A DNA stretch of 64,000 bases from Candidatus Brocadiaceae bacterium (GTDB taxonomy: Bacteria > Planctomycetota > Brocadiia > SM23-32): NCBI GenBank assembly GCA_012728835.1, contig JAAYEJ010000012.1, positions 1-64,000 of the forward strand. The letters are read 5' to 3'. Shown here in pieces: positions 36,563-62,366 of this stretch. Under the pieces are notes generated by a model, which made no database searches, was not told the DNA's origin, and saw only the letters and a program-made list of their open reading frames with translations. Position 1 is the stretch's first letter. The number at the start of each line of letters is the position of its first letter. The position numbers and the translations under genes are program-made.

Positions 36563-38470
36563 TCAGAAGCCCGGGACGGCGCCGCGGGTGAAGGACCCGA
36601 GGACGGTGCTGACGCCCGACACGGCGGCTTCGGACATGATCACGCCGATGAAGAAGAGGCGGCCCTGCCGCAGCATGCGGCCGCCGGCGAACCTCGAGAC
36701 GGCGACCTTGATGAACCAGCCGATCAGGAAGGGCAGCCAGATGCGGTCCGGGTTCCAGCCCTGGCAGGTCAGAAGCCCGATGGGATGCAGCGGCCACCAG
36801 TAGAAGCGGGCCCGCATGAACATCACGAAAGACGTCAACAGGATGCCGGCGACAAACGGGCCGGTGTAGAACAGGCGGCCCGTGCCCCGTCCGACGATCT
36901 TCGTGTGGGCCAGGTCGAACGCGGTCCGCACGTTCCCGATGCCCGACCACGCGGCGTCGTTGAAGTTCACCACCCCGACCTTGTAGGCCTGATCCAGGTA
37001 GGTCCAGCTCGATATGGTCAGGGAGACGATCAGCACGAGCACGATGATGGGGAGCAGCAGGGCGCGCTTCTTCGGAAACACCTCGCTGATCCGCACCGAG
37101 TGCATCATCGCCGGGCCGTGAGGGATGCTGTACATCATGCGGCGCTGCATGTGGGCCAGGACGGCCCCGGGCGGGCCGAAGGCGGTGCCGCCCGTGATGC
37201 CGTAAACCAGGTCGGTCGGGTCCCATGCCAGCCAGGGGTCGGGCACGCCGCTCTGGGCCACCAGGCGCGCATGGACGAACTGGATGCACATGAGCACCGC
37301 GAACCACGCGATGGCCGTGGGCAGGCGCATCTGGAACACGCGGAGCCAGGCGACCACCAGCGCGGAGCACAGCAGGAGGCCCCAGAAGGCCCAGCCCAGG
37401 GGCAGGACCTCGCGCGAGTCGTCCGTCTCCCGCCCCCGGCCGAACGCCCTGCGCAGGACGTCCGCGAAGTGCCGCCGGCACATGAAGAGCGCCCCGATGG
37501 TCAACGCCACGTAGGCGCCTCCCATCTGCCAGCTCAACAGGTTCGAGGGGCTGATCGTGCTGCCGACCTGTGCAGAGACGACCAACTCCGCGCGTGTGAA
37601 CAGGTAGATGAACCAGATGCTCATCGAGACGTCGACCGGCACCAGGAAGGCGAAGCCGAGGGCGATCCAGCTCATCGGCACGTCGACGAACCGGGCGGCC
37701 TCCAGGGCCGTGCCTGCGAAGGTGGTCTGCAGGGGAAGCTTCGGCGACCATACGGTGCCGCCGACCAGCAGCGGGACCGCACGGATCAACCGGAACACGG
37801 TGGCTCCGGCGAACCCCAGCACGAATGCCTGGTTGCCGAAGATGATCGGCAGCCAGCCCTCGCCGTCGGCCCCCTCGCTGAACTCGAGGGGGACGCGGGC
37901 CAGGGGGAACTGCAGTCTCTCCTGATCCACCCACTGCTTCCGCAGCAGTATGCACATGAACAGCACGGCGGTGAAGAAGATCAGCCAGAAGACCCCCCAG
38001 CTCAGCAGAGGCGTGCGCCACGCGTGCCAGGGCACGCGGGCCTCGCTGCCGCCGCCCTCGTAGAACCGCCGGGCGGCGACCGACAGCGGGTCCTTGCTCA
38101 CCACCAGGTCGTCGGCGACGGCGTTCAGCGCCGTCTCGCGCCAGATGATGTCGGAGCGCCCCGCCAGATAGGGAGGCCCCGCAAGCATGGGCAGCCAGAA
38201 GCGCTGCAGGCCGGTCGTCGGAATGCTGGAGGCCACCAGGAGCATGATCCAGACGAGCATCAGCTCGGCCTGGCGGAAGGCCCATCCCCTGCGCACGAAC
38301 TTGATGACCACGTTGACGACCAGCGTCAGGACGACCAGCGCGAAGACGCAGGAGACGGGGAAGTTGCTCTCGGTCATCCGCCCCCAGATATGGGCCCAGC
38401 CGCAGTAGACGTCGGACCAGTTCAGCAGCCCGGCCAGGAAGAGGCCCAGGAAGAACGCGCGCCAGGTCAT
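36563..38470 (-). CDS. DUF6785/OPT-like polytopic membrane protein, copy 1
   Basis: A 635-residue inner-membrane protein with about a dozen hydrophobic segments, starting at residue 5 (FFLGLFLAGLLNW). Recognisable blocks include NWSDVYCGWAHIWGRMTESNFP, QWVDQERLQFPLARVPLEF, and QSGVPDPWLAWDPTDLVYG, typical of the large membrane proteins annotated DUF6784/DUF6785 or OPT-like in PVC-type bacteria. The transport substrate is not known for the family. It begins 92 nt after the stop of the DUF4091-like secreted protein on the same strand, so the two may be cotranscribed. It is related in fold and motifs (ERLxFP) to the protein at 55505. Confidence 0.7.
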   Translation of the reverse strand: MTWRAFFLGLFLAGLLNWSDVYCGWAHIWGRMTESNFPVSCVFALVVLTLVVNVVIKFVRRGWAFRQAELMLVWIMLLVASSIPTTGLQRFWLPMLAGPPYLAGRSDIIWRETALNAVADDLVVSKDPLSVAARRFYEGGGSEARVPWHAWRTPLLSWGVFWLIFFTAVLFMCILLRKQWVDQERLQFPLARVPLEFSEGADGEGWLPIIFGNQAFVLGFAGATVFRLIRAVPLLVGGTVWSPKLPLQTTFAGTALEAARFVDVPMSWIALGFAFLVPVDVSMSIWFIYLFTRAELVVSAQVGSTISPSNLLSWQMGGAYVALTIGALFMCRRHFADVLRRAFGRGRETDDSREVLPLGWAFWGLLLCSALVVAWLRVFQMRLPTAIAWFAVLMCIQFVHARLVAQSGVPDPWLAWDPTDLVYGITGGTAFGPPGAVLAHMQRRMMYSIPHGPAMMHSVRISEVFPKKRALLLPIIVLVLIVSLTISSWTYLDQAYKVGVVNFNDAAWSGIGNVRTAFDLAHTKIVGRGTGRLFYTGPFVAGILLTSFVMFMRARFYWWPLHPIGLLTCQGWNPDRIWLPFLIGWFIKVAVSRFAGGRMLRQGRLFFIGVIMSEAAVSGVSTVLGSFTRGAVPGF

Positions 38471-46725: not shown

Positions 46726-48234
46726 TCAGCGGCCGGCGATGCGGCGGAGGCATTCCTGCACGGCGGCCAGGGCGATCTCGACGACCGTCTCGGTGTTCAT
46801 CAGGATGGCGTGCATGCCGTCGCGGTTGCCGGACATCTCGATCACAAACGCGGCCGGAGTGCCGCCCTCGGCGGCGTAGCCGATCAGGTAGGGCATCTGT
46901 CTCGACGGCTTCGTGATGTCGTCCATGTTGACCTGCTGGAACGGTCCGAAGTCCGGCCTCTGGCAGAGGAAACGGTCCTTGAGCCGGGCGCGGATGTTGG
47001 CATGGATGTCGTCGACGAACGCGTGGTCGCCCTTGTGGGCGCGGATCAGGCCGTAGTCGGCCGTGTGGAAGTCGATGGCGCAGAGGGGGCGGCACCGGTC
47101 CAGGATCCGCTGCAGGACGAGCGTCTCGCGTTCAGAGGCCGGCCGGGGGCCCTTGTAGTTGTAGTCCCAGGGCGTCGCGACGTCCTGGACCTCGGGCAGG
47201 GCGTCCCAGGCGCAGTCGAAGTTGCGGTTCAGGTCCACGCCGCGCGAGTTCTGGCGGGTGAAGTGCTCGTGGCCCCAGGGGTTCTGGATGGGCACGAACT
47301 GGAAGTGCAGGCGAGACGTGTCGAGCCCTTCGAGGTCAGGGCGTTCGGCCAGCAGCTCGGCCAGCCGCAGGACGCCGTAGGCGTTCTCCCACTCCCAGCC
47401 GTGGATGGAGGCGCCGACGTAGAGCGTGGGGTTGTCCTGCCGGCCCAGGCTGAGGCTCCACATGGGCCGGCCGTCGCTGGAGGGCCCCTCGTTCCGGAGC
47501 GTCAACGCGGGGTGCGCACGCGCAACGTCCGCCATGGCGTCGGCGAACTCCTCGTAGCTCCAGCGCTTCGGGTAGTTCCGGCCGTAGCGCACGCCGCTGC
47601 CCAGCATGTTGGCCAGGAACAGGTACTTGTTGGTCGAGCCGTGGCTGTTGAACGTCGGGCGGCCGGGCGAGAGCATGTCGAGGGCCACGATCCGGCCCTT
47701 TCCGACCTTCTCCTCGACCATGACGGCGCCCTGGTTCACGGTTGAGGTGGCCAGGATGCGCACGGTCTCGGACTCGCGCACGCCGAAGAGCTGGCGCTGG
47801 AACGTCTGGTTCTCGTAGCGCAGGTCGGCGGTGCGCTCCACGCAGCCGAACCAGCCGATCCGGTCGCCGACCGCAAAGCCGCTGGTCACGTCGCATTCGA
47901 CCTCGATCCGCAGAGCCGGGGGTTCTGCATCGAGCAGGTGCGTCTTGCTCAGCCGCAGGCCGCGGTTCTCGGAATACTCCAGCAGGCAGGACAGGACCTG
48001 CCCGCCCTGGCGGGCATAGGCCGTCAGGGCCCGGTAGTTGAGCTTGGGCAGCAGGACGCCGTGGGCGACCTGCGTGATGACGCAGGCGTAGGGCGCCAGC
48101 GAGGCCGAGGTGATGCGTTCCTTCGTGTAGTCGAGCCGGTCCAGCCGGCCGGGGTAGAGGATATCGAGGTCCTCCCCGATGCGGCTGCGGGACGGATCGG
48201 CCAGAAGCAGGATGTCCTTGCGCCTGCGGGCCAT
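46726..48234 (-). CDS. M14-family zinc carboxypeptidase with an N-terminal amidotransferase-like domain
   Basis: A 502-residue protein. Residues 1-230 look like an alpha/beta ThuA-type or amidotransferase-like domain (DILLLADPSRSRIG, YARQGGQVLSCLLEY, VGKGRIVALDMLSPG). Residues from about 240 form an M14 carboxypeptidase: ASIHGWEWENAYG (His and Glu zinc ligands near 275), SRGVDLNRNFD, AIDFHTADYG (third ligand) and FVIEMSGNRDG with the catalytic Glu. No signal peptide is seen, so it probably acts on a cytoplasmic amide or isopeptide. It follows the DegT-like gene by 27 nt. The substrate is unknown. Confidence 0.82.
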   Translation of the reverse strand: MARRRKDILLLADPSRSRIGEDLDILYPGRLDRLDYTKERITSASLAPYACVITQVAHGVLLPKLNYRALTAYARQGGQVLSCLLEYSENRGLRLSKTHLLDAEPPALRIEVECDVTSGFAVGDRIGWFGCVERTADLRYENQTFQRQLFGVRESETVRILATSTVNQGAVMVEEKVGKGRIVALDMLSPGRPTFNSHGSTNKYLFLANMLGSGVRYGRNYPKRWSYEEFADAMADVARAHPALTLRNEGPSSDGRPMWSLSLGRQDNPTLYVGASIHGWEWENAYGVLRLAELLAERPDLEGLDTSRLHFQFVPIQNPWGHEHFTRQNSRGVDLNRNFDCAWDALPEVQDVATPWDYNYKGPRPASERETLVLQRILDRCRPLCAIDFHTADYGLIRAHKGDHAFVDDIHANIRARLKDRFLCQRPDFGPFQQVNMDDITKPSRQMPYLIGYAAEGGTPAAFVIEMSGNRDGMHAILMNTETVVEIALAAVQECLRRIAGR

Positions 48235-54102: not shown

Positions 54103-55488
54103 CTACCTGTCCAGGATCGGGCCGTAGAGGGGGCCGTCGGAGCGCGCTGCATCGGCCGCACGCAGGGCGGAGAGCGCTTCGGCGACGACGTCGGCGATGG
54201 ATTCCTCTTCGCTCACCTCCGTCAGCGCACTGGCGATCTGCCGGTGCACGAACTCGGTGGGATTCGGGACGGACAGGTCGTACTCGCCCTCCCGGGCTGC
54301 GTAGTCCGCTCCGATTCGGCCGAGCAGGTCCACAGCCAGCCGCATGCGGCGCACGTTGGCGCGGCGCATCTCCCGTTCGTTCTCCTCGCGGGTGAGGCGC
54401 AGGGTCTCGACGGCCATGAAGGGGTTGATCGTGGTCTTGGTGGCGAAGTAGGAGAGGAAGCGGATCGTGAACTGGTTGTGCCGGAGCAGCCAGGCGCCCT
54501 CGGCCGTCAACTCCCGCACCCTGTCGAATCGGTGGCTCAGCAGGCTCAGGTACTGGTAGATGTGCGGATGGTCCAGGCGCTTGCCCTCGGCCATGAGGCG
54601 GGTGATGTCGTCGACGACCAGGCGGCCGGCCTGTGCCAGTCTCGTCATGCCGTCCTTATACGCCGCCTCCATGCGATCGGCCTCGGCGGTGCAGTAGGAT
54701 GCCTCCTCGTCGGAGAGGCTGGCGGGGCGGTCGGCCAGCATGTCCACGAACTTCCCGACGGCCTGGCGGCGAACGGGTTCGGAGGCCGCGGAGGATTCCT
54801 CGATGAGCGCCCGGAGGGCCGACGCCTCGGCGCCCACGAACACCCTCTTGCGCAGTTGCTCCTGGAGTGCCGTCAGGCGGCGGCGTTCGGTTCCGGCCGC
54901 CCGGCCCGGGCGTCCTTCGGCGACCCAGACGAGCACTTCGGTGATCTGGTTCTCGACGTACGTCATCTCGGCGTCGGCCCGGCGTTCCGCGATCATGTCG
55001 TCCAGCACCTGGCGATCCTCGTCGCTCAGTGCGAACTCAGGGGGCAGCGTGCCGTCGGCGGACATGCTGGCCAGGAGGGTTCCTACGAGGCTGCGGCGGG
55101 CGGAGGTGACACGCCACTCGACGGCCTTGCGGAGGGCCAGAGCACGGGCCATCCGGGGGTCGTCCTCCTCGTTCTGCAGGAGTTCCTGGTTCACATAGAG
55201 GAAGGAGAGCATCGGCCGGCGCTGCAGCACCTCCATCGCTCGGCGCCCCGTGTCGCTCTGCAGATCGACCGCCTCGGCGCCCAGGCTGCCGCGCAGGTCG
55301 CGAATCGCCGCCCGCAGTCGGGCCTGCGTCACCACCGAGAACGAGATGTGCAGGACGCTGTAGATGCAGAAGGGCACGAAGATGACGTAGAAGGGGACCG
55401 TGAACCACCGGGGAAGCAGCGGACCGGTGGCCGCCTCCCGCAGCGTGGGGGTCTGCTGTTCCTGCTCGATGCGGCTTGCTTCGCTCAT
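54103..55488 (-). CDS. single-pass membrane protein of unknown family, third gene of the FtsX-fusion operon
   Basis: A 461-residue protein I do not recognise. One membrane helix lies near the N-terminus (about residues 29-52, FTVPFYVIFVPFCIYSVLHI). The remaining ~400 residues are predicted from composition to be mostly helical and charged, without cysteine motifs or repeats, placing a large soluble domain on one side of the membrane. ATG 55488 is 16 nt after the stop of the DUF6785-like gene, so the two are probably coupled. Context with the 1588-residue permease fusion suggests an accessory subunit. No function can be assigned. Confidence 0.6.
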   Translation of the reverse strand: MSEASRIEQEQQTPTLREAATGPLLPRWFTVPFYVIFVPFCIYSVLHISFSVVTQARLRAAIRDLRGSLGAEAVDLQSDTGRRAMEVLQRRPMLSFLYVNQELLQNEEDDPRMARALALRKAVEWRVTSARRSLVGTLLASMSADGTLPPEFALSDEDRQVLDDMIAERRADAEMTYVENQITEVLVWVAEGRPGRAAGTERRRLTALQEQLRKRVFVGAEASALRALIEESSAASEPVRRQAVGKFVDMLADRPASLSDEEASYCTAEADRMEAAYKDGMTRLAQAGRLVVDDITRLMAEGKRLDHPHIYQYLSLLSHRFDRVRELTAEGAWLLRHNQFTIRFLSYFATKTTINPFMAVETLRLTREENEREMRRANVRRMRLAVDLLGRIGADYAAREGEYDLSVPNPTEFVHRQIASALTEVSEEESIADVVAEALSALRAADAARSDGPLYGPILDR

Positions 55489-55504
55489 TGTGGGGACTCG
55501 ACTG

Positions 55505-57466
55505 TCAGAATGGCACCATGGTGATGGCTCTGTGGATCAGGAGGATGGCCACGGCTCCCATCCCCACAAGGCCGGTGCCGCAGGCGAAGCCGGCGGCAAG
55601 TACGGGGGTGAAGTTGCCCCAGCGCTGGCGGCCGAAGACCTTCTGCATGTAGAACCGGCCCAGCAGGGCGGCGGCCAGCATGGGTGCGGCCCAGGCGGGG
55701 TCGCCGACCAGCCCGGTGATCGTTCCGTAGAGGAAGAGCGTGGGGGCTCCGATGAGGCGAAGGAACGTGTACATGGCCACGGCATAGCCGGTGCCGCAGC
55801 CGATGACGCGCCAGTTGAGGGCCTTGAGGAAGAAAGCGTTGCCCGTGGTCGTGGCCGTCATCCAGAAGGCGGTCATGGTGGCGTCGCGCGGCCAGAACCG
55901 CATGGCGTTCGGGTAGTCCTCCGGGATGTCGCTGATCTTGTAGAGGAAGGACCAGAACAGGAGGCCGGCGACGACGGCGATCGGCGCCATCAGAAGTTGC
56001 GCCTTGAAGATGCTCGTGAACCTCGTGCCCGTCAGTTCCACCTCACGGAAGTGCAGGGCGCTGCCGCCCTGGTCGCCCATGGGCACCGGCGCATACCAGA
56101 TGTCCACGCCCTTGTAGCCGCTCAGGACGAAGGCGGCCTCGCGAACGTAGGGGATGCCCACGGCGTGGCCGGTCAGACCGTGCAGGCGCGCGCTGACGTA
56201 GGAGATCATCGGCGTCCAGACAAATCCGAACAGGAGCAGCAGCCAGACGGGGAACTTGGGCACCAGCCAGTGGCAAAGCATGATCATCCAGAGCGTGCCG
56301 GCGATGTAGAACAGCACGGCCACCGGGATGGGCACGTCGCCCCGGCCTTTGGGGGGTGCCAGCGACCCGCCGCTGGTGGCGGACCGTGCGGCCTGGGCCT
56401 TGATGGCCTGGCTGAAGGCGGCGTAGAAGCCCAGCAGGGCGATGGCCACGGCCGTGCCGATCGAGAAGCTCAGCCAGAAGTCGAACTGGTTGGCCAGGCC
56501 CGTCTCGATGTAGTCCATGCCGGGCTGCCACATGTTCAGTATGCCGATGCGGTAGAGGATGGGGTTGAGGATCAGCCGCCCGAGCACGCCGCCGCAGAAG
56601 TTGCCCACGACCATCCAGAAGGGCAGCACGAAGCCGGAGAAGATCAGTGCCAGGTTCGTGCCGATGGCCAGAGGCACGGCGCGGAACCACCCCACATTCT
56701 GGAGCTTGGTGGTGAAGTCGTAGAACGGCACGGGGATCAGGTAGAGCGGCTTGCGCAGGAAGACGTCCGAGAGCGGGGGAATCGCCACGTAGATCAGGCC
56801 GAAGACGATGCCCACCGTGCTGCCGATCGAGAAGCAGCGCCACCGCCACGTCTCCTCGTCGCTCTCGGCAAGGGCCGTCACGCCCTTGGCGGCGATGGGC
56901 GCCATCGGGAAGGGCAGGCGCTCGACGTCGCTGGTCAGGCGGAAGACGGCGTACCCGAGGCTGAAGAAGCTCAGGCGCCCCCAGATCGTAAACAGGGCGA
57001 GCAGCCCCAGTTGCGGCCACCAGTCCCTGTGCAGCAGGGACCGCTGGATGAACGCCTCGCTGCCGGGCGGCGGTGCCTTCCAGAACGGTATCTGGTTGGC
57101 GATCTCGAACTGGACCGCCGCATCGCTGCGGACGAAGTACGTCATCCCCACGAACGTGTTCATCCACAGGTTCGGTATGGCCGCGCCCAGCACGCTGAAG
57201 GTCACGCTGTAGATGACGAACATCTCCTGGCGGCTCAGCGTCGTGCGGCAGCGCTTGGCGATTTCCAGGAAGACGATGAGGGTGACCCAGACGGCCGGCT
57301 GCCCGAGCTGCTGGCCGAGCATGAGGAACATGAACATCGAGCCGGGCATGACGACGAACGCGACGAACAGGCCCGCCAGGATGGCCTTGATGCCGAATCC
57401 GTCGGCGAATGCCGTGGGCTCTTCCTGCTCCTCGCGTATCTTCAGATAGTCTTCGCCGCCAGCCAT
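55505..57466 (-). CDS. DUF6785/OPT-like polytopic membrane protein, copy 2
   Basis: A 653-residue inner-membrane protein with roughly 14 hydrophobic segments and a short charged N-terminal tail (MAGGEDYLKIREEQEEP). Blocks such as SDVERLPFPMAPIAAKGVTAL, PFWMVVGNFCGGVLGRLI and GYKGVDIWYAPVPMGDQGG resemble the OPT-like/DUF6785 membrane proteins of PVC-type bacteria. It is flanked by the M28-FtsX fusion gene (64-nt gap) and the single-pass protein gene (16-nt gap) on the same strand. Peptide or oligosaccharide transport is a reasonable guess from the OPT resemblance, but no substrate is shown. Confidence 0.68.
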   Translation of the reverse strand: MAGGEDYLKIREEQEEPTAFADGFGIKAILAGLFVAFVVMPGSMFMFLMLGQQLGQPAVWVTLIVFLEIAKRCRTTLSRQEMFVIYSVTFSVLGAAIPNLWMNTFVGMTYFVRSDAAVQFEIANQIPFWKAPPPGSEAFIQRSLLHRDWWPQLGLLALFTIWGRLSFFSLGYAVFRLTSDVERLPFPMAPIAAKGVTALAESDEETWRWRCFSIGSTVGIVFGLIYVAIPPLSDVFLRKPLYLIPVPFYDFTTKLQNVGWFRAVPLAIGTNLALIFSGFVLPFWMVVGNFCGGVLGRLILNPILYRIGILNMWQPGMDYIETGLANQFDFWLSFSIGTAVAIALLGFYAAFSQAIKAQAARSATSGGSLAPPKGRGDVPIPVAVLFYIAGTLWMIMLCHWLVPKFPVWLLLLFGFVWTPMISYVSARLHGLTGHAVGIPYVREAAFVLSGYKGVDIWYAPVPMGDQGGSALHFREVELTGTRFTSIFKAQLLMAPIAVVAGLLFWSFLYKISDIPEDYPNAMRFWPRDATMTAFWMTATTTGNAFFLKALNWRVIGCGTGYAVAMYTFLRLIGAPTLFLYGTITGLVGDPAWAAPMLAAALLGRFYMQKVFGRQRWGNFTPVLAAGFACGTGLVGMGAVAILLIHRAITMVPF

Positions 57467-57530
57467 TGGTCGCCTATGCTCCGGTCCGTTTTCATGGCCC
57501 AGCGGCCGCCCCGGCGGGGGCGGCCGGCAT

Positions 57531-60500
57531 TCAGCTCGTCTGAACGGCCTGCCCGCTGAGGCGCGCCCGGCCCTCGGCGGTCAGCCGCTTCTTGGCGTCG
57601 GTCGTGACCAGGCGCCAGATCAGCAACTGCTTGCGCAGGTCCTTGAGGAATCCCAGGTTCATCCGGTGCCAGGTCTGGAACTCGCCGCTCTTGCGCGTCA
57701 GAACGAAGTACAGATACGTGATGTCGGGCTGTTCGGCGTCCGGCACGCTGGATATCTTGACGCTCTGGCTCACGCCCATGTCCAGAGGCGCCACCCAGAC
57801 GGTGGCCTCCATGGAGATGCGTCGGGAGCCTTCGACCGTCTCCTCGTAGAACGCCAGGTCGGCCGAGGTGAAACTGCCCACCGCGTCTTCGTCGTTGCTC
57901 TCGAAATACTCGTAGAGGTAGGAGATCACGCCGAGCGCCTCATGGGAGCTGACCGTGAACGGGAACCAGATCTCCCAGACGTCGCTGGTCGGCTTGGCGA
58001 TCGTCATCCGGCGCGTCTCGTCCGGCACGCTCAGCTTGCCGGCCATGCGGGCGGGGTAGGCCGTCGAGAGCAGCACGACGACCACCACCGCCAGGGCCGA
58101 CCACACGGCGCTGACGCTGGAGTAGTTCAGCGAGATGCCCTCCATCAGGGCGGGCACGTGGACGAGCCCCCGGCTGATCACCTGGCCCAGCAGGTATCCC
58201 AGCATGGCGCCCATGACGGCGAACACGCAGCTTTCGGCGAAGAACAGCGCGCCGATGTGCACCGGAGCGAGCCCGACCGAGGCGTAGGTCTTGATCTCGC
58301 CGATCCGCTCGTAGACGGCCCCGAGCATCGTGTTGAACACGATGAGCGCGGCGATCATGATCGGCACGACCAGGCCCTTGAGCCCTCCCATGCTCAGGCG
58401 GGCGCGCGTGGCCACGCGATGCACCTGCGGCGTGCCGCCCGGCGTCTTGCTGTAGCCCGCATACAGCGCCAGGTTCACGCGGCTGAGGAGCTCCTGGAGC
58501 ACCTGCCGGAACGGACGCAGCGAGGTGGCGCCCGTGCGGCCCGGTCCGGCGGCGATGGAGCGGACCGTGCCGCCCAGCTTCAGGTTGAGCTCGTTCGGGA
58601 TGAAGAGCACGCGGTCCGGCTCCATGTGCACGTACTGCTCTTCTTCCTCCTGCTGGGCGGACTTGCGGTGGACGAACGTCTCTACGTCCATCTCCCCGGT
58701 GGCGCTCAGGGCCAGCCCGCCGCTCCCGGCGGCCGTGCCGGTCTGGCCTTCGCGGTACTGCTGGGCGACGAAGTCGACGGGGGTGATCTCCTCGTCATCG
58801 ACGTCTTCGTAGCGGAACAGCTCGTCGCTGTTGATCGAGCCGATCACGCGCAACTGCCGGCCCATGACGCTGATGTAGGCCCGGCCCATGTCGGAGTCCT
58901 CGAGGCGCAGGTTCTCCTTCATGCGCGTCGGCACGATGCAGACGAAGGGCCAGTCGGGAGCCGACCGGTCGAACCACCCGTGGCTGAGGTACTGCGGGGT
59001 GTGGATGCCGGAGAACTGCGCTTCCTCGGGCGTGAGGCCGAGGATGGCGTTGGCCACCGCCTCGCCCTCGCCGCCGACCCGCGAGATCTCGATCTGAAGC
59101 TCCTCGGTCTTCTTCCGGTTGACGAACCAGCTGCGCGGGGCGACGTCCATGCCGCGCACGCGGAAGAAGTTCATCATGTCGTAGGCCACGAACTCCGGCA
59201 GCGGCCCCCAGCCGAGGCCGCGCAGCAGCACGCCTTCATACGGGGCCTCGCGCGGCGAGGCGTACTCCAGCATGCGCGTGGGCATCGTCTCGAAGCTGGT
59301 GAACGACAGGATCGTGAACGTCAGCAGGATCAGCGTGGCCGCCGTCAGCCCGGTGCGCACCTTGCGTTTGCGCATGTTGGAGATGCCGAGGATGAAGGCC
59401 GCCATCGTCGCGCTGGCGCGGGCCACGTCGGCCCGGTGGATCATGTCGACCTTCTGGCGCAGGTGTTCCATCACGATGTTGAACTTCGCCAGCAGGTACC
59501 AGATTACGCCCAGGGCGGCGACCAGCATGAAGAAGCCGTCCAGGATGATGATGGGGGTCTCGGAGAGCTGGAAGGCCGGGTGTACGAGCCGCAGGACGAT
59601 GTAGGAGAGCACGAACAGACAGGCGATGGCCAGCAGCTTCTTGCGGATGTCCACCACGTTCAGCAGCAGGCGTTCGGCGAAGATGACGAACGGCAGCAGC
59701 AGGGCGAAGTAGAAGACCACGCCCTTGACGACGTCCGTGGCCGTGTCGCGCACGTCCGGGTAGACGCGGTTCTCCAGCGCCCAGGCCATGTTCACGTTGT
59801 CGTAGAAGGTGTCGTAGTTCCCGGCGCCCATCTCGCGGCGGGCGTTGTGGATGTGCGCTTCGGCCTGGTCGTACAGCTCCCAGACCCGCGTCTTGTAGAT
59901 GCCGCTCTGCGTGAGCCGGTCCATGCGGTGGGCGTCGAGGCTGTGCATGTCCTGGACGGTCTGAAGCCCGGTCAGGTAGATGAAGTTCTCGGTCTGGTCG
60001 GCACGGTACCCGATGCCCGTCTTCTCCCGCTTGCTGCGCTCCTGCTCGGTCACCTGGTCCTGGTAGTTCAGCAGCAGCCCCTCGTTGCCGACGGCGGTGG
60101 CCGCCATGAGGTACTTCACGTTGCGGTCGCGGCGCGTGAAGTAGACGGCCAGCGGCTTGCTGAAGGGATCGTCGACGGTCTGCTGGCCGACGAACGAGAC
60201 CAGTTCGTCGGGCTGGAACTCGCTGTTGGATTCGCCCCGGACCGCGATCGTGCGGCCGAGCGTGGCCAGGGACAGCGGGTCGATCAGGTCGAAGATGGTG
60301 TTGCAGACGGCCCGGAAGAAGTTCATCCGAACGTCCGTCTCTCGTTCGGTCCAGTCGGCCTCCCGCGCGCGGGCCGAGGCCGCCACCAGCTCGGATTGGG
60401 CCACTTTGCTGACGACGCCGTCCGTGGGCGACAGGGCGAAGCCGTCGACGCGGAACGTCTGGGCGTCGACCAGCCCGAAGACCTCGAAGTGGCCCTGCAC

Positions 60501-62297
60501 GTTGCTGATGCGGAAGTCCAGCGTCGAGACGCCCATCATGCTCTTGGAGCGGCTGGTCAGGGTCGGGGCCAGCATGCTGACGGCCACGGTGGCGTTCGGG
60601 ATGGGCGTCTTCGGCATGTAGGCCAGGAGGGCCAGCTCAATGGTGAAGCCGAAGATGCTCCCGATCTTGCGCTGCTTCCAGATGTCCTTGCGCTGGATGG
60701 GCAGCACGGGGATGTCGGCCGTGCTCTTGATCAGGTGGGCGCAGGCGATGGCCTGCCGGCGGACGTTGTCGAGGTACGGCTCCAACTCCTCGTAGGTGTC
60801 CTGCGGCGTGTTGACGCTGTTGCGGGGGTCGCCGGCCGTCGCCAGCGTGATGCCCGGGTAGCCGCACAGCGAGATGACCTCGCTGTCGAAGGCCATCAGG
60901 TCGGGCACCAGAGACCGCCAGTCACGGCCCTGTTGGGGCACGATGCCGCTCAAGTACTTCAGAGTCCCGACCGGGCCGCCGCGGACGGACAGCCCGTTCA
61001 TCCACTCCGTCAGCAGGCTGCTGTACTCGGCGTAGGCCCGCTGGAGATCAATCTCCTGGTTGCTCCAGCTCAGCGTCAACTGGTCGTAGAAATTGCCCTT
61101 GTAGAAGGACCCCAGGCTGTTGTGCCGGCTGGAGAGGTCCAGTCCGATGAAGAAGTACGGCTCGCCCGTGGCCTGGCCGGCCGAGGCGTTGGGGCCGCTT
61201 CGGCGGGGGTACATGGTGCGGAACGCGTAGTCGCGCACGCCCGAGAGAGCCTGGTAGTGGCCGGGGGCGGCAATGAACTTCACCTTGCGCCGCGGCGGGT
61301 GCTTCGTCAGATACCTGGCGACCTCCAGCATGGTCGCCACGCCGCAGGTGCTCTCCGCTCCCGGGCAGAGGGCGGGGACGACCGAGGTCCCGTCGTAGTA
61401 GGTGAACACCACCAGCGCCTGATCCGCCAGTTGCGGATCGATGCCCGGGATCTCCCCGCTGATGCGGAAGACGTCCATCTCCTCCCACCGCATCTGGGCC
61501 CGTACGGTCGCCCGGACCGACGCGCCTTCCGGCGTTCCCAGCCGGTGCAGCGCCGCCTCAGCCTCGTCGGCCGAGGCCGTCTCGCCCGCGCGCCCCGACA
61601 GGGCCGCGGCCAGGGCCGGCAACTGCGCCTTCTGGATGTAGTAGCGCGGGACCGGAACCGGAAGGTCCATGTACTTTTGTTCGGCGTCGATGCGGAACGC
61701 ATGCGGCGACTGGACGAAGATGATGCCCGCCGCCCCGGCCTTGGCCACGTTCACCCACCGCGTGTCCGAAGCGAAATCCATCAGCACCAGGTTGCCGCGG
61801 ATCTCCTTCTTGTTCATGTCGCTCAAGTGTCCCGGGCCGACCCACACCAGATTCCCGGTGATTCCGTCCGGCCCGGTCATGGGGGTGCGAACATAGTTGG
61901 GAAAGAGGCAGTAGAGGGGAAGCTCGCGGGAGCCGACCGTCAGGGTGGCCCCGTGCGAGGGGCGCTCGCCGCGCTCCGCCTCCGGAATGCGCTTGCCCCA
62001 GCGCTCGTCGTCCGGGACGATGGGCACAACGACCTGGAACGGCTCTTCCGTCACGTTGGCCAGCCCGAGCGCGCGGAACTCGGCGGCGATGTAGCGGCCG
62101 GCCTCGTAGCAGCCGGGGTACCCCGTGAACCGGCTCTGGTAACCGGACAGGTGCCGGATGTGTCTGGCGGGGTCGATGGCCCGCAGGTCGGCTTCCGAGT
62201 CGCTCGCGGCCGCACCGGGCTCTGCGGCCAAGCTCGGTGTTGCGAGCAGAAAGAAAACAAACGCCGTACAGGCCGCGAATCCCCACTTGCGCGCCAT
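57531..62297 (-). CDS. M28-peptidase-like domain fused to FtsX/MacB-like permease, giant membrane protein
   Basis: A 1588-residue protein. A signal peptide (about 1-24) is followed by an M28-type region with an embedded PA-like domain (about 120-260; VAKAGAAGIIFVQSP). The metal-site motifs are altered: YYDGTS where HxDS is expected, PGAESTCG for PGADDNASG, no EE pair in AAPGHYQALSG, and NTPQDT for HTPxDT; IGLDLSS keeps the Asp. Three membrane helices occur near 850-945, then a permease core: helix 1 after MRKRKVRTGLTAATLIL (near 975), a ~300-residue outer loop, and three helices at about 1300-1420 with YERIGEIKTYASVGL. ATG 62297 has GAAGG upstream. An ATPase partner would be needed but none is encoded here. 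Confidence 0.8.
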   Translation of the reverse strand: MARKWGFAACTAFVFFLLATPSLAAEPGAAASDSEADLRAIDPARHIRHLSGYQSRFTGYPGCYEAGRYIAAEFRALGLANVTEEPFQVVVPIVPDDERWGKRIPEAERGERPSHGATLTVGSRELPLYCLFPNYVRTPMTGPDGITGNLVWVGPGHLSDMNKKEIRGNLVLMDFASDTRWVNVAKAGAAGIIFVQSPHAFRIDAEQKYMDLPVPVPRYYIQKAQLPALAAALSGRAGETASADEAEAALHRLGTPEGASVRATVRAQMRWEEMDVFRISGEIPGIDPQLADQALVVFTYYDGTSVVPALCPGAESTCGVATMLEVARYLTKHPPRRKVKFIAAPGHYQALSGVRDYAFRTMYPRRSGPNASAGQATGEPYFFIGLDLSSRHNSLGSFYKGNFYDQLTLSWSNQEIDLQRAYAEYSSLLTEWMNGLSVRGGPVGTLKYLSGIVPQQGRDWRSLVPDLMAFDSEVISLCGYPGITLATAGDPRNSVNTPQDTYEELEPYLDNVRRQAIACAHLIKSTADIPVLPIQRKDIWKQRKIGSIFGFTIELALLAYMPKTPIPNATVAVSMLAPTLTSRSKSMMGVSTLDFRISNVQGHFEVFGLVDAQTFRVDGFALSPTDGVVSKVAQSELVAASARAREADWTERETDVRMNFFRAVCNTIFDLIDPLSLATLGRTIAVRGESNSEFQPDELVSFVGQQTVDDPFSKPLAVYFTRRDRNVKYLMAATAVGNEGLLLNYQDQVTEQERSKREKTGIGYRADQTENFIYLTGLQTVQDMHSLDAHRMDRLTQSGIYKTRVWELYDQAEAHIHNARREMGAGNYDTFYDNVNMAWALENRVYPDVRDTATDVVKGVVFYFALLLPFVIFAERLLLNVVDIRKKLLAIACLFVLSYIVLRLVHPAFQLSETPIIILDGFFMLVAALGVIWYLLAKFNIVMEHLRQKVDMIHRADVARASATMAAFILGISNMRKRKVRTGLTAATLILLTFTILSFTSFETMPTRMLEYASPREAPYEGVLLRGLGWGPLPEFVAYDMMNFFRVRGMDVAPRSWFVNRKKTEELQIEISRVGGEGEAVANAILGLTPEEAQFSGIHTPQYLSHGWFDRSAPDWPFVCIVPTRMKENLRLEDSDMGRAYISVMGRQLRVIGSINSDELFRYEDVDDEEITPVDFVAQQYREGQTGTAAGSGGLALSATGEMDVETFVHRKSAQQEEEEQYVHMEPDRVLFIPNELNLKLGGTVRSIAAGPGRTGATSLRPFRQVLQELLSRVNLALYAGYSKTPGGTPQVHRVATRARLSMGGLKGLVVPIMIAALIVFNTMLGAVYERIGEIKTYASVGLAPVHIGALFFAESCVFAVMGAMLGYLLGQVISRGLVHVPALMEGISLNYSSVSAVWSALAVVVVVLLSTAYPARMAGKLSVPDETRRMTIAKPTSDVWEIWFPFTVSSHEALGVISYLYEYFESNDEDAVGSFTSADLAFYEETVEGSRRISMEATVWVAPLDMGVSQSVKISSVPDAEQPDITYLYFVLTRKSGEFQTWHRMNLGFLKDLRKQLLIWRLVTTDAKKRLTAEGRARLSGQAVQTS

Positions 62298-62338
62298 CTC
62301 TGGACCTTCTCGCATCAGGGCAACCGGTTGTCGCCGCC

Positions 62339-62366
62339 ATTATAGGCGGTCGCCCAATGCTGTCAA
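62339..62366 (-). promoter_or_regulatory. perfect-consensus sigma70-type promoter for the permease-fusion operon
   Basis: Minus strand: TTGACA (62366-62361), 16-nt spacer, TATAAT (62344-62339). Both hexamers match consensus exactly. The leader to ATG 62297 is about 35 nt. Confidence 0.75.

Follow-up and report, generated by a model that had tools for sequence, protein, structure and literature searches.

A pseudo-M28/FtsX fusion encoded beside an OPT-fold protein in a Planctomycetota genome points to a type VII ABC system shared with other phyla

The stretch of DNA analysed here (the window) comprises 64,000 nucleotides (nt) of contig JAAYEJ010000012.1 of a Candidatus Brocadiaceae bacterium (GCA_012728835.1), a Planctomycetota metagenome-assembled genome whose closest named relatives are Planctomycetota bacterium CSMAG_1167 and Planctomycetes bacterium SM23_32 (83% identity in the OPT-like protein). 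Its minus strand carries three consecutive open reading frames (ORFs), encoding a fusion of an M28-like ectodomain with an FtsX-type permease, an OPT-like membrane protein of 653 amino acids (aa) and a third protein of 461 aa (Table 1). In some relatives the first two stand in one operon with an ATP-binding cassette (ABC) ATPase, and we describe here the evidence that they belong to a LolCDE/MacB-like ABC system. A preliminary description of the window, made from the letters alone, had reported three genes on the same strand, gaps of 64 nt (fusion to OPT-like gene) and 16 nt (OPT-like to third gene), a single strong promoter and no ATPase gene nearby, and each of these points was confirmed: the promoter agrees with the sigma-70 consensus at every position, the region has two promoter-like sites where 0.4 are expected, and no ATPase gene adjoins the operon. 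Counted from its first ATG, the fusion ORF spans 57531-62315 on the minus strand (1594 aa), but a start at 62297 is preferable, with GAGAAGG located 7 nt upstream of it. A perfect hairpin of 9 bp, all G+C and without a T run, lies in the gap between the fusion and OPT-like genes and possibly tunes expression or mRNA stability.

Table 1 Features of the three-gene operon (fusion residue numbers are counted from the ATG at 62315)
Feature	Position	Strand	Remarks
Lineage-restricted single-transmembrane protein	54103..55488	-	HEAT-related in relatives
OPT-fold multi-span membrane protein (predicted fold)	55505..57466	-	Only confident PDB match barley Yellow Stripe 1
Fusion-OPT gap, 64 nt, with hairpin	57467..57530	-	Predicted -33.0 kcal/mol for the gap
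Fusion: secreted pseudo-M28/PA ectodomain, three extra transmembrane helices, MacB/LolC-type FtsX permease and cytoplasmic C-terminal domain	57531..62297	-	
Conserved cytoplasmic C-terminal domain, residues 1440-1594	57534..57998	-	Modelled beta-alpha-beta4-alpha; weakly START/PR-10-like
FtsX permease core: TM1, MacB-like ectodomain, TM2-4, conserved coupling segment YERxxEI	58038..59360	-	
Three additional transmembrane helices, residues 859-950	59466..59741	-	
All-beta middle region, residues 546-850	59766..60680	-	
Pseudo-M28 domain with PA insert, residues 45-545	60681..62183	-	Zinc ligands largely lost; Pfam M28, YwaD match
Sigma-70 consensus promoter, TTGACA-16 nt-TATAAT	62339..62366	-	12/12 consensus matches

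The fusion begins with a signal peptide and an M28 domain that contains PA; an all-beta middle region and three extra transmembrane (TM) helices lead to a complete FtsX unit, and a conserved domain forms the C terminus. Pfam M28 was matched by 34 of 36 fusion relatives, and the profile built from these 36 matched the YwaD aminopeptidase (6hc6, E = 3.5e-19), the transferrin receptor, nicalin and nicastrin in the PDB. The zinc and catalytic residues of the domain are almost entirely lost. Among 48 aligned sequences, the first His is kept in one (Tyr or Phe in 45), the bridging Asp in one, and the catalytic Glu in none (His in 45, Arg in three); the second Glu and the last His are each retained in none, and the fourth-ligand Asp is still present in 31. 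An active M28 peptidase was thereby ruled out, and judging from these replacements the domain should bind, not cut. It thus resembles the transferrin receptor, nicastrin and nicalin, inactive M28 homologues that combine PA with the M28 fold and have lost the zinc ligands, but differs from them in being bacterial and joined to an ABC permease. Of the secreted peptide-binding domain proposed in the preliminary description, the binding domain is supported by the loss of catalytic residues; a peptide as its ligand is plausible rather than established. One member of the fusion alignment matches F5/8-type C at 1.5e-19, and the alignment shows an insert at L068 (L068:4930-9855), where an F5/8-type C (carbohydrate-binding) domain seems to have been inserted into the ectodomain region.

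The permease half was matched to MacB (1.8e-15), LolF and LolC by profile, and to MacB, LolCDE and YbbAP by fold search. Its segment YERxxEI...GLAP is nearly invariant among fusion relatives. Segments of this type contact the ATPase in such permeases, so that an ATPase partner is predicted by the near-invariance alone. The nearest catalogued sequences are those of PADLOC CARF_m8--LolE_TM (PDLC01991), which the permease half matches in 35 of 35 aligned fusion relatives, near full length (L138 836-1472 to profile positions 11-596; L125 826-1510 to 18-631). The N-terminal, middle and C-terminal pieces of the fusion gave no match to a CARF domain, in place of which the fusion carries the pseudo-M28 ectodomain. 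Because the match is confined to the permease half and CARF was not found, a defence-system reading was not adopted.

The same match bears on a second reading, a sensor or mechanotransmission complex like FtsEX or BceAB, in which the permease would relay ligand or cell-wall binding at the pseudo-peptidase to the cytoplasm, or the reverse, and so gate the OPT transporter. CARF_m8--LolE_TM links this permease half to a CARF domain, a sensor by name, and a sensor is also consistent with an ectodomain that is a pseudo-enzyme and with a conserved cytoplasmic C-terminal domain that is weakly START-like. The PR-10/START matches returned by the fold search, which probably stem from that domain, are weak, however, and the core neighbourhood holds no two-component or regulator gene that recurs from phylum to phylum. 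We regard a sensor complex as unlikely.

A Pfam search with the OPT-like protein of the window gave no match, neither to OPT (PF03169) nor to DUF6785 (PF20581); Pfam OPT was matched by 4 of 22 of its relatives, at best with 2e-7. Folds were compared because the family profile found no match among PDB sequences. The AlphaFold model (mean pLDDT 81) gave two confident matches in the PDB, both to barley Yellow Stripe 1 (E = 2e-10 and 6e-10; TM-score 0.63/0.68; probability 1.00), and on this model gene 2 is predicted to have the OPT (Yellow Stripe 1) fold. It departs from the OPT family in having no Pfam OPT match and in being encoded with an ABC complex; we know of no other OPT proteins encoded together with one. 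The preliminary description had labelled the middle gene DUF6785/OPT-like, and the OPT half of that label stands. Membership of DUF6785 was ruled out, since there is no PF20581 match and DUF6785 is a separate gene beside the OPT-like gene in many relatives, forming part of the operon in Desulfobacterota and some other lineages. DUF6785/DUF6784 is nevertheless a distant homologue (hhalign probability 84, E = 8e-6 for DUF6785 against the OPT-like protein).

The third protein has a single TM helix near its N terminus and matched no known family. Its gene is present in six of the nine genomes of the window's family, and distant relatives with HEAT repeats follow the OPT gene in L063 and L065. At comparable sensitivity it was not seen beyond the family and a few relatives, and it is a lineage-specific accessory that does not belong to the system in general.

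A cluster on another contig of the same genome, C29 (G000:C29:42531-46186), encodes u313 (~310 aa, no significant match to Pfam or PDB profiles), a PqqD-like protein, a second FtsX permease and a LolD/MacB-type ATPase, in the order u313-pqqD-FtsX-ABC that is also found in Armatimonadota. The ATPase has intact Walker A, LSGGQ, Walker B and H-switch motifs, scores highest against LolD and MacB models, and is 66-74% identical to the ATPases in the operons of relatives, for which the next ATPase of this genome reaches 40-49%. Other FtsX/ABC pairs of the genome were rejected as partners of the fusion: the other ATPases compared score far below that of C29, and a pair on C5 sits among extracellular-binding-protein and permease genes. 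The partner FtsX on C29 (L179:3893-5308, equal to G000:C29:43892-45307) has an insert of ~250 residues in its ectodomain without family assignment. In several genomes the ATPase has a paralogue within the system (L204:13763-14557; L188; L191; L195), sometimes in tandem with it, which suggests that the ATPase is heterodimeric in some lineages.

An OPT-like profile scan of 85,000 species genomes gave 565 confirmed relatives, and the loci examined were the best 80 by similarity, not a random sample. The fusion lay at the same locus as the OPT gene in 60 of the 80. These 60 loci included a close ATPase in 30 cases, the small FtsX in 29, u313 in 26, the PqqD-like gene in 25 and DUF6785 in 31; fusion, OPT, ABC, small FtsX, u313 and pqqD all stood together in 23 of the 80, from several phyla. 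The typical order is FtsX-ABC-fusion-DUF6785-OPT in Desulfobacterota, with u313-pqqD further downstream, and fusion-OPT-u313-pqqD-FtsX-ABC in Armatimonadota. Within the window's family the latter order recurs at L205 (genome G007), while at L204 (G008) u313-pqqD-FtsX-ABC-fusion-OPT-second ABC follow in a row; in G001 the cassette is on another contig (L206), the same split as in the window genome. Loci L192, L193, L194 and L195 of the same phylum support the joining of the cassette to fusion and OPT, and in the wider phylum the two are joined in G195 and G254 and split in G182. Since gene order is kept in many phyla, the association is not due to chance. The fusion is intact in relatives. Of the three-gene order whose conservation the preliminary description had proposed to check, the pairing of the fusion with the OPT-like gene thus holds in many phyla, and the third gene is lineage-restricted.

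The C29 cassette and its joining to fusion and OPT in relatives rule out an ATPase-free system; the machine is split in the window genome. A reading along the lines of the preliminary description would be a self-contained, three-gene sensing or uptake operon without an ATPase. The unlinked ATPase of this genome and a third gene that is co-directional after 16 nt would fit such an operon, but the cassette is present on C29 here and forms part of the operon in sister genera and other phyla, the third gene has the narrow distribution given above, and the coupling segment YERxxEI is strongly conserved, all of which makes it highly improbable.

Co-occurrence was assessed in 246 genomes of the phylum, a close ATPase being one with E < 1e-80. 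The OPT gene was found in 34 of them, every one with a strong fusion match. A close ATPase was present in 30 of these 34 and in one of the 212 others, G134 (Fisher p = 4e-33); this p-value overstates the evidence because species are not independent, and more weight lies in the spread over families and phyla. The ATPase that the preliminary description had proposed to look for alongside the fusion was thus found, and is of LolD/MacB type. OPT genomes without a close ATPase included G286 (77% complete), and only a 51-52%-identical ATPase was found in G210 (61% complete) and G234. In the window's family the OPT gene occurs in nine of nine genomes and the partner FtsX in seven, the other two being only 67-70% complete.

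Several observations weigh against reading these genes as one machine. At 15 of the 80 loci the OPT gene was separate from the fusion; in favour of one machine, the 13 genomes tested with an unlinked OPT gene all encode the fusion elsewhere. G117 (~90% complete) has the fusion and OPT genes without a close ATPase, and G134 has the fusion and ATPase with no OPT match. The ectodomain of the partner permease also varies, being almost absent in most relatives, made of SLBB domains in L117 and an unassigned insert in the window genome, so that ligands could differ between lineages. In Latescibacterota (L073-L076, L081) the OPT-like gene stands alone and each genome has three or four fusion matches elsewhere; the system is therefore multi-copy there.

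Features of a type VII ABC system were found: an FtsX/MacB-type fold with an ectodomain between TM1 and TM2, the coupling segment, and an ATPase (on C29, outside the window). None of the NCBIfam cut-offs for LolC, LolE and LolD was reached, nor were the curated cut-offs for LolCDE, FtsEX and MacB proper. The permease type, the TM1-TM2 ectodomain, the coupling segment and the LolD/MacB-like ATPase are shared with LolCDE, MacAB and YbbAP-TesA, and two permease genes per ATPase gene with LolCDE; a second FtsX gene, for the putative other permease half, accompanies the fusion, on C29 in this genome and within the joined operons of relatives. Unlike these systems, the present one has a large secreted pseudo-M28/PA ectodomain and three extra TM helices fused to one permease, a constant OPT-fold partner, and PqqD-like and u313 proteins, and no MacA, TolC, LolA or TesA was seen.

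The best functional precedent is YbbAP-TesA, a type VII extraction complex whose partner has a hydrolase fold (PMC12646458). It argues for a membrane-extraction machine, in which the ABC complex would act like LolCDE or YbbAP-TesA, drawing a lipoprotein, lipid or lipopeptide out of the inner membrane, and the OPT proteins would merely be co-regulated. The FtsX half, closest to MacB/LolC by profile and fold, and an ATPase that scores best against LolD and MacB models are consistent with extraction. However, the M28 domain is without catalytic residues, the OPT protein accompanies the fusion in all 34 genomes, no LolA-type carrier was recognised among the recurrent neighbours and the Lol cut-offs were unreached, and we consider extraction with co-regulated OPT proteins rather unlikely.

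From composition, linkage and folds, together with the lost peptidase residues, the coupling segment and the ATPase motifs, it appears likely that these genes encode a LolCDE/MacB-like type VII ABC complex that binds an extracytoplasmic ligand through its pseudo-peptidase ectodomain and works with one or more OPT-fold partners. That the parts form one ABC machine is very probable, and the OPT protein probably works physically with it. Two ATPase subunits would drive a heterodimer of the small FtsX and the fusion, as LolD drives LolC/LolE, and ATP cycles would shift the periplasmic arms. The pseudo-peptidase ectodomain would capture and hand over its ligand, probably a peptide or peptide-like chelate, which the OPT-fold protein, in some lineages together with DUF6785, would pass through the membrane or accept; the PqqD-like protein would deal with the cytoplasmic end of the ligand, and the third protein would be a lineage-specific accessory. 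Taken by itself, a peptide-like ligand is a tentative assignment, and uptake is slightly favoured over export. The peptide or lipoprotein sensing or uptake suggested in the preliminary description is plausible. A more far-reaching proposal, which we hold to be doubtful, is the first ATP-coupled OPT system: a new envelope transporter, conserved in many diderm phyla, whose type VII ABC complex would have a pseudo-peptidase receptor and either power an OPT-fold channel or control its gating, the ectodomains and the cytoplasmic sensor domains being exchangeable.

Open PMC full text, which does not cover subscription papers, held no description of this gene set or of DUF6785/DUF6784, and the system is apparently an undescribed, widely conserved bacterial envelope machine. 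Its six to seven genes are common to Planctomycetota, Armatimonadota, Desulfobacterota, Latescibacterota and others. Type VII ABC systems serve in lipoprotein sorting, efflux, division and lipid extraction, and the present one would widen that range. To our knowledge, a link of ABC energy to OPT-fold transporters would be the first. The system is present in the named strains Desulfatibacillum alkenivorans DSM 16219, Halodesulfovibrio spirochaetisodalis and Desulfogranum marinum DSM 2058, and is therefore experimentally testable.

Among other neighbours, cNMP-binding, SpoIIE and fused ABC exporter genes recur mainly in Desulfobacterota-type loci. A secreted protein of ~200 aa from no known family (L137:11972-12601 and relatives) is encoded near the OPT gene in seven such loci and is a candidate periplasmic partner. 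In the window the operon is flanked by a convergent MATE gene and a divergent, argB-like amino-acid-kinase gene. A DUF6785/6784 gene at 36563-38470 (minus strand), one of five copies in the genome, adjoins the gene of a large secreted protein outside the fusion operon. The gene at 46726-48234 (minus strand) encodes a zinc-carboxypeptidase-like protein whose N-terminal region, judged by eye, recalls glutamine-amidotransferase folds.

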